From NCBI GenBank assembly GCA_026261815.1, contig JAMPIT010000434.1, forward strand, positions 17,047,001 to 17,111,000: 64,000 nucleotides of DNA, read 5' to 3'. The notes under the pieces are model-generated. The model was not told the origin of the DNA, made no database searches, and worked only from the letters and a program-made list of their open reading frames with translations. Shown here one piece after another: positions 38,101 through 41,100 of the stretch. Position 1 is the stretch's first letter; each line of letters begins with the position of its first letter. This DNA comes from Monarcha castaneiventris obscurior (lineage: Eukaryota > Chordata > Aves > Passeriformes > Monarchidae). The position numbers and the translations under genes are program-made.

Positions 38101-41100
38101 TGTAAAGATTCACTCTAGGTGGACTTGAGCTTTTATCTCACTGATTCTTGTAGTTGCACAACAGTCACCTTGCAGCAAATGCCCACAGGAACTTGGCATC
38201 TTTTTCAGTCACTAACCATCAGGGAACAACTGCATCCTGCATAAATAACTATTTATTGTGTTCAAAAACAAGATTGGTACATCTGTGCATATTAATACAG
38301 TATAATCAAATGACTTCCTTGAAATACAAGACAGCAGGGCATGATTCAAGGTTGGGTCAACTTTTCTTCTACTTCTTAAAACCTAAGGAAAAAATCTTTA
38401 TAGCAAGAACACTAATCTCAAATGCCACACCATAGATTAAGTTAGTTGTAGCTCTGTAATCTTCTTCACTTTAGAAAACAAACCAGAGGAATATGTCATC
38501 ACTTAGTCACAAATTGACATTTGCACTGTAAAACTACACAGTCATTTGATCATTAGAAGTTTCCAATGGTGTTTTTTGAATAGCATTTCTTTGGTATAGG
38601 ACAGGAAACTCAGCTGTTGATTAATCCTTTAGTTTAAAATTCAGCTTACCTTTGATGATAAAAGAGTTCACCCTGCACAACTGGCCTGAACACTAATCCT
38701 AACATTCTTCATTGACAGCCATTTCACAGAGAATTTCCACAGCAGTAGCTAAATGTTAAATTACTACACCATTTGCTTTATTTTACAGGACAGATTTAAC
38801 CTTTGCAAATACTTCTCTCATAAGGTGTATAGAACTGACTGCAGCAGGGCTACACAGCTGTTTCCTTCAGCCAACCAAAGATGCTCTAAGGGGATTTTTA
38901 TAAGTTTCCAGGCACCTAGTTCCTAGTAAGTACAGACTGACTTATTCTTTATGCCACATTAATTACCTAGCAATCTTTAGGAACTGAAATACAGGATGCA
39001 GAGAAAAATATAGGCAATACCAAAGCCTTTGGTGTTAGATGTGTCCATATCACTGTGATAATCTTGTTCCTGCAAGTTCAGACACCAAACGTGGAAAAAA
39101 AAAACAACAACTTCAACACTATGAACCACTGGGAGATTATGGCTTTGGTCAGCACCTTGCGCAATACAGCAGAACTTCTACTTTAGTTCTAGGTCATATT
39201 TTTGTGTAGAATCTATGCACTGGAACATTTTTAAACTGATGTACATTGAAACAAGCAGCAAACCCTGCACTCAGCCTGATCTCAGTGTTACTGATGGGAT
39301 TCTGCCACACTAAGATTCAACCCTGCAAGGAATTCTTCACATCGAGATCTATTTAACAGCTCCATTAGCGATTCATTAATATCTTTGTTAAAAACAGAGT
39401 CAAAGTTTCCATTCACACAGGCTTCATTTTCCAGTTGAAAACTGCTCATTAAATCCTGTATCCACTTGAGTTCCTCAGAAAGTTCCTGTCGGAGGGATTC
39501 GTACTGGCTCTGCAGCTCCATGTACTTCCCAGATATGCCAGCGAGACTGGCGCCGACAGCCTTGATATCATCGTGCAAATGCCTTTTCAGGGACTCCATT
39601 TTACGGTACTCATACTTCAGCTGGGACAGCTTGTGCCTCACGCTTTCACTCTCTTCTTTATACCAAGCTTCTTTCTCATTATAAATGGAAAGCAGAGCAT
39701 CCATGTCCTCCTGCAAGGAATCGTGGGATGCAGCCAAGGTGCTGAAACCCCTCTCCATACGGGAGATGTCCTCTACGACATGGGCGAAGCGCTCAAAGTT
39801 GATGTAGGTGTTATTGGGGGGCATGCTCGAGTGGCACTTTATGGTGTACTCCCTCAGGCGTTTTGTCTTCAGCTGCGTGTTCTCAACCTTCTTGTTCTCC
39901 TGCACTTTGGTTTCCTCTTTCAGCTGGTGAGTCGTCAGACAGAGGAACCAATATTACTGAACGTTTACAAGACTGCAGCAATTCAAAAACTCTACACAAA
40001 GGATGCAGCCTGGGCTTCCACAATGCTGGGAGATTCTTTATTCACACAGATTTTCCTTCATGCATTTGATTAAAAGAAAGAAACACCAAACACACAGGCC
40101 CAGAACTGAATGTGACCACAATGTGCATTCATTCCAATGTGATAAGTGCAAAAAACATGGCTGCAACTTATTTTCATGCTAATTTTTAGCAGTTAACAGT
40201 GTCAAAACTGTCAATATTTGTATGAGGAAAAACAACAACCCTGAAACCACTCCAATTAATATTTTGTGTAATTCAAACCAAAAACTGAATTTCAAAAATC
40301 CTCATTAGTCATGCTGAGACTAGATAAATGTATTTTCAGTAAGAGACTTATCCACATAAGCAAGCAATGTTTATGATGAAAATATACATAGACACACAAA
40401 TGTAAGCAAACCAGAACACGTTGTACAGCAATTCTCTATTGAGAGAAATTATATTTTCCATATTGATTGCAGTCAGCTCTCAATTCAAGAAAGCACTAAA
40501 GCCAACACACAGTATATGCCCATGCAAACAGAGAAGAATGGAAAAATGCAAAGCCCAGTCCAATATGGGATACTGTAATGTGCAATAAACATCACAGCTT
40601 TATTACTCTCTTTTTGAAAGTTATGATAATAAAAGAAGCAATTTGCAGAAATGCAAGGATTTGGTCAGACCCAACCAATTTCCTCCCAGTACATCTCTTT
40701 GAGTCACCCAGCATCACAAAGTACAAAGAGGGCAGTTTTCCATTTAACACACCAGTAAGAGTGAGAATAGGATCTCTGCTTTGTTCATGGTAAAAACCAA
40801 AATCTGTTTCTTTATTCAGTCTTACCGTTATCCATGGATGAGAAAGAGCTTCCTGAATCGTAAGCCGCTTCCTAAAAAACAACAACACAAAAAGCCCCCA
40901 AAGCCTTGAATAAAAAATACTTGGTACACAAGTCCATTGACTCACACTTCTCCTGGGCTTCCTACGAAGCATTTATCAAGATAATTCCAGGACAAACACT
41001 CAAATTTCAGGGTTATGTTTCTCCTTGAGGCACACTGCTTGTGTGCAGTTTAGTTACTGTTCTAAACTTCAGTAGGTAACTGTTCTTACTCCACACAACT

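Follow-up and report, generated by a model that had tools for sequence, protein, structure and literature searches.

Does the bird DAPK2 gene encode one kind of protein kinase or two, and if two, where does the second tail come from? The question is raised by a 64,000-nucleotide stretch of the genome of Monarcha castaneiventris obscurior (GCA_026261815.1, contig JAMPIT010000434.1, positions 17,047,001 to 17,111,000; hereafter the window), in which a preliminary description had placed an additional last exon that joins in frame to the last kinase exon. The window contains a bird DAPK2 gene on the minus strand, and its coverage of the gene starts at the glycine-rich loop of the kinase domain and runs through to the canonical stop; a search for the N-terminal part within the window found no ATG exon upstream of 54977. 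The features are as follows.

54756..54977, minus strand: DAPK2 kinase exon (AG/GT boundaries and frame; matched by DAPK2 in the PDB)
49635..49773, minus strand: DAPK2 kinase exon (AG/GT boundaries and frame)
48093..48222, minus strand: DAPK2 kinase exon (AG/GT boundaries and frame)
46932..46980, minus strand: DAPK2 kinase exon (AG/GT boundaries and frame)
46218..46244, minus strand: DAPK2 kinase microexon of 27 bp, encoding SIGVITYIL (AG/GT boundaries and frame)
42235..42387, minus strand: DAPK2 kinase exon (AG/GT boundaries and frame)
40826..40871, minus strand: last shared kinase exon, donor in phase 0 (donor gtaagactg)
39288..39923, minus strand: alternative last exon, assigned below to DRP-1beta (DAPK2beta), 211 codons plus TAA, ZIPk/DAPK3-type coiled-coil tail, acceptor in phase 0 (frame, homology, trees and predicted helix)
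38777..38782, minus strand: candidate polyadenylation signal of the beta transcript, AATAAA, the nearest after the beta stop (+506; consensus match only)
35889..35978, minus strand: canonical tail exon 1, acceptor in phase 0, calmodulin autoregulatory segment (boundaries; aligns to DAPK2 and DAPK1 in the PDB)
35636..35716, minus strand: canonical tail exon 2 (boundaries, frame and PDB match)
35034..35108, minus strand: canonical last exon with stop, dimerisation tail (boundaries, frame and PDB match)

The seven kinase exons have AG/GT boundaries and join into a single reading frame, and both spliced models, alpha with the canonical tail and beta with the alternative one, are open and have GT-AG introns. 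The beta exon sits in the interval bounded by the end of the kinase exon at 40826 and the start of the calmodulin exon at 35978. The intron measures 902 nt (40826 to 39923) when the beta exon is included and 4847 nt, up to the first calmodulin exon, when it is skipped; all three exons of the calmodulin/dimerisation tail (35978-35034) are intact downstream. In the PDB, the alpha model matches DAPK2 at 6e-191 over query residues 1-334, that is, over kinase and calmodulin tail. The longest DAPK1 alignments extend to query residue 307, and hence the calmodulin segment is common to DAPK2 and DAPK1. DAPK3 chains extend to residue 254-259, but the DAPK3 entries listed comprise three distinct sequences, each of them a kinase-domain construct (278-304 residues), which by themselves carry little information on the DAPK3 tail. 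Together with the kinase tree described below, the PDB match identifies the locus as DAPK2, with a DAPK2-type kinase and a calmodulin tail. Downstream of the 3' end of the gene, a CpG-rich island at 12251-13000 (G+C 0.70-0.82, CpG observed/expected 0.79-0.98) is perhaps the promoter of the neighbouring gene, which by the human gene order would be HERC1.

The exon at the centre of the question is found at 39288..39923 on the minus strand as an open frame of 211 codons closed by TAA, as originally described. Its acceptor reads gacgactcaccag up to the exon boundary and CTGAAAGAG beyond it, and the last kinase exon ends with CATCCATGGATAACG followed by gtaagactg at 40826; both boundary sequences bear out the proposed match in phase, with the donor at 40826 and the beta acceptor at 39923 in phase 0, as is the calmodulin acceptor at 35978. 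The 20-residue motif attributed to the exon is present as written. The stop-free run in the beta frame amounts to 221 codons, which is above all 2000 resamplings of positions 39000-41100 of the minus strand under a first-order Markov model (median 82, maximum 189). With the exon alone as query, 248 proteins are matched at E<=1e-3, the best at 5e-119, and it is this homology that decides against a chance frame. At this one DAPK2 locus, two alternative tails, both in open frames, thus follow the kinase, and judged from its sequence the gene can encode two kinase architectures, as had been claimed.

An exon of this kind has been published. Shoval et al. 2011 (PMC3050894) describe an exon, DRP-1beta, that follows exon 8 and precedes exon 9 of DRP-1/DAPK2 in those vertebrate loci whose sequence was known at the time. 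It encodes 165-220 residues and has a 'tightly conserved' acceptor; residues 5-165 of the human exon are 42% identical to ZIPk residues 289-444. The exon of the window is single, in frame and stop-terminated, and its 211 residues are within the published range. It is almost certainly the bird copy of DRP-1beta (DAPK2beta), at 39923-39288. The same paper reports chicken transcripts as well as mammalian mRNA and protein, the latter in embryonic and young mouse brain and not in the adult. It further reports phosphorylation of myosin light chain, blebbing, the appearance of autophagic vesicles and binding to ATF4; the evidence on transcript and protein, on kinase activity, on blebbing/autophagy and on ATF4 was obtained in mouse and human or in transfected cells (PMC3050894). 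It also gives two fish exceptions, one zebrafish DAPK2 gene without the exon and a second fish gene without the calmodulin exons, and a model in which a common progenitor had both tails and the calmodulin exons were then lost from the progenitor of ZIPk. The isoform is cited again, as DAPK2beta, in a 2023 review (PMC9941348). The kinship to the DAPK3 tail, which the preliminary description held to be under-appreciated, is therefore nothing of the sort, being the subject and title of PMC3050894 and repeated in PMC9941348. The exon, its ZIPk-like tail and the model of calmodulin-exon loss have been known since 2011, and the finding restates published work.

In the proposed mechanism, the primary transcript could be processed in two ways beyond the last shared kinase exon. 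Use of the acceptor at 39923, with cleavage of the RNA downstream, would yield a kinase with a 211-residue DAPK3/ZIPk-like coiled-coil tail; skipping of the beta exon would let the three downstream exons supply the autoinhibitory segment that binds calmodulin, along with the short dimerisation tail. Since the coiled-coil tail replaces the calmodulin-binding segment, the beta product should not need Ca2+/calmodulin, and it would be expected to oligomerise and to bind leucine-zipper partners such as ATF4. We infer expression, intronic polyadenylation and function of the beta form in Monarcha. Few ESTs are described for DRP-1beta, and the protein was unseen in several cell lines (PMC3050894); on this restricted detection, the beta exon may be silent in most tissues. 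The same scarcity of ESTs and restricted expression would fit an exon that is conserved yet unused in birds, a relic frame, but the reading frame is intact, its product is 87% identical to that of chicken over the exon and 97% to that of crow, and chicken transcripts of the isoform are stated in the same source, which makes disuse very unlikely.

Among the protein matches listed for the tail, the closest are DAPK2 models of the New Caledonian crow (Corvus moneduloides), isoform X2 among them, at the 97% identity given above; when full-length proteins are allowed, 680 proteins are found at E<=1e-3. The listings hold the best 120 of 248 matches (exon alone), the best 120 of 680 (full-length proteins) and the best 120 of 432 (DAPK3 query), and among the retrieved bird rows there are many gene predictions. 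Many bird gene models carry the exon as a DAPK2 isoform or under the mistaken name 'DAPK3 kinase'. No named non-vertebrate row occurs among the matches listed in any of the three sets, and many rows of the set of 248 are nameless. DAPK3 records were fetched with a human DAPK3 sequence used solely for this purpose; it matched 432 proteins, of which the best 120 are 65-99% identical to the query tail. All 120 of these DAPK3 rows match the beta tail, at 34-48% identity (median 46%) over 142-167 residues, the best alignment of each having E<=3.1e-18, counted per protein so that pieces of one protein do not enter twice; the lowest identity, 34%, is that of some rodents and one unnamed row. A KTxRLxEYT-type motif is present in 116 of the 120, and the motif given for DAPK3 in the preliminary description is correct, the gorilla DAPK3 record P0234 having KTTRLKEYTIKSHSSLPPNN. 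The beta tail is similar to the extra-catalytic domain of ZIPk/DAPK3, and the claimed kinship is one of homology. No family reached its curated cut-off in Pfam, where the 21 matches of the beta tail at E<=1 were weak and in many cases to coiled-coil or helical families, and a PDB sequence search with the tail returned four matches (E 0.049 to 0.57), none of them a DAPK chain, and no solved structure of the tail.

The predicted shape of the tail is in keeping with the long coiled coil of the first description. AlphaFold2, given 24 aligned tails, predicts one helix at residues 39-165, with pLDDT per ten-residue block of 89-98 for residues 41-160 and of 57 for 161-170; confidence is low for the first 40 residues and at the C-terminal end (mean pLDDT of the model 78.2, pTM 0.36). 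As a monomer prediction this is consistent with a coiled coil and is no proof of oligomerisation.

The relation of the two tails was examined with maximum-likelihood trees without an outgroup, built from 32 chosen sequences with 30 rows for the tails and 29 for the kinase domains. The tail tree lacks Lissotriton DAPK2 and Artibeus DAPK3, and the kinase tree lacks Gallus, Odocoileus and Gorilla, because a simple motif split missed the sequence or the kinase part was short. In each tree a single branch separates DAPK2 from DAPK3 with 100/100 support, read for the kinase tree with a bootstrap that had not settled (0.989 vs 0.99 wanted) and for the tail tree with Odocoileus on a long branch. The window sequence adjoins Corvus, and both its kinase and its tail fall on the DAPK2 side (100/100), not with vertebrate DAPK3; bird DAPK2 tails group with those of elephant shark, coelacanth and fish DAPK2, apart from bird DAPK3 tails (100/100). 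The phylogeny with DAPK3 tails that had been suggested as a check thus keeps the two families of tails separate. Since the trees agree, tail and kinase appear to share one history, and the coiled-coil tail is probably older than the split of DAPK2 and DAPK3. A DAPK3 retrocopy or recent gene-conversion copy inside the DAPK2 intron, suggested by the resemblance of the tail to DAPK3 and by the many bird models named 'DAPK3 kinase' that carry it, is rejected as least probable of all on the tail and kinase trees and on an identity to DAPK3 tails of at most 48% among the 120 rows listed, and the trees instead fit inheritance of the DRP-1beta tail from a common ancestor. As they have no outgroup, the direction of change, loss of the calmodulin exons by DAPK3, is argued from the calmodulin segment that DAPK2 has in common with DAPK1 and from the published model. 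Lamprey evidence for the tail, in the form of record P0032 labelled Lampetra planeri (61% identical to the tail), was set aside for its percomorph pattern: its identity is 88% with two percomorph fish, 81% with stickleback and 61% with elephant shark, and the record is a probable fish contamination of the lamprey assembly.

A detail of the kinase-tail joint may differ from the published description. In the window, the beta exon directly follows the codons ACT CAC CAG (THQ), ahead of which stands CG and not AG (39924-39934, minus strand), and hence only the downstream AG can serve as acceptor here. The junction was surveyed in 121 of the 230 rows P0002-P0231, those in which an H[PS]WI motif could be recognised, all predicted proteins, in a classification that misfiles at least one row (P0126). 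THQ/SNE-type residues, three residues earlier, start 49 of the 121 junctions; the birds in this class are eight rows, all Galloanserae (P0004, P0006, P0150, P0159, P0160, P0162, P0163 and P0164), and the rest are lizards, amphibians, coelacanth, fish and the lamprey-labelled P0032. Another 46 junctions start at the L/S position, as in the window, and comprise 29 bird rows by name (including rhea), mammals, snakes, a caecilian and one misfiled bird row, so that 29 of the 37 bird models starting at either site use the downstream one. Six junctions are of other kinds. The remaining 20 (VRL..; P0124, P0125, P0128, P0131, P0136 and 15 others) run on from the last kinase exon into its intron ahead of the join to the beta tail; all are bird models named 'DAPK3 kinase', and for this reason they have the look of annotation artefacts, with the models forced toward DAPK3. 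On the gene models, we consider it an evenly balanced matter whether the beta acceptor of this lineage has shifted downstream by 9 nt; since lizards and snakes do not share a class, either several switches are needed or the pattern is an effect of the prediction programs. If the shift is true, three residues at the joint of kinase and tail differ between lineages, which would depart slightly from the published picture of a 'tightly conserved' acceptor and may be unrecorded.

The swap of tails within one gene illustrates how modules common to paralogous kinases are retained or lost, a point already made in 2011 (PMC3050894), to which the window adds one further intact bird example and a possible small splice-site shift. 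Compared with DAPK3 (ZIPk), the beta form has a homologous coiled-coil tail, with the block KTxRLxEYTIKxHSSxPPNN common to both, but DAPK3 is a separate gene whose kinase and tail are outside the DAPK2 group, and the DAPK2beta tail past residue 176 is not reached by any DAPK3 alignment made. With DAPK2 alpha (canonical DRP-1) the beta form shares the locus, where all three alpha tail exons are intact downstream; in contrast to beta, alpha has a calmodulin-binding and short dimerisation tail instead of a coiled coil. DRP-1beta, as presented in PMC3050894, agrees in gene, place, single exon, frame, length range and ZIPk-like tail, and nothing of substance sets the Monarcha exon apart from it, although gene models suggest that its acceptor is 9 nt downstream of the site in Galloanserae, lizards and fish.
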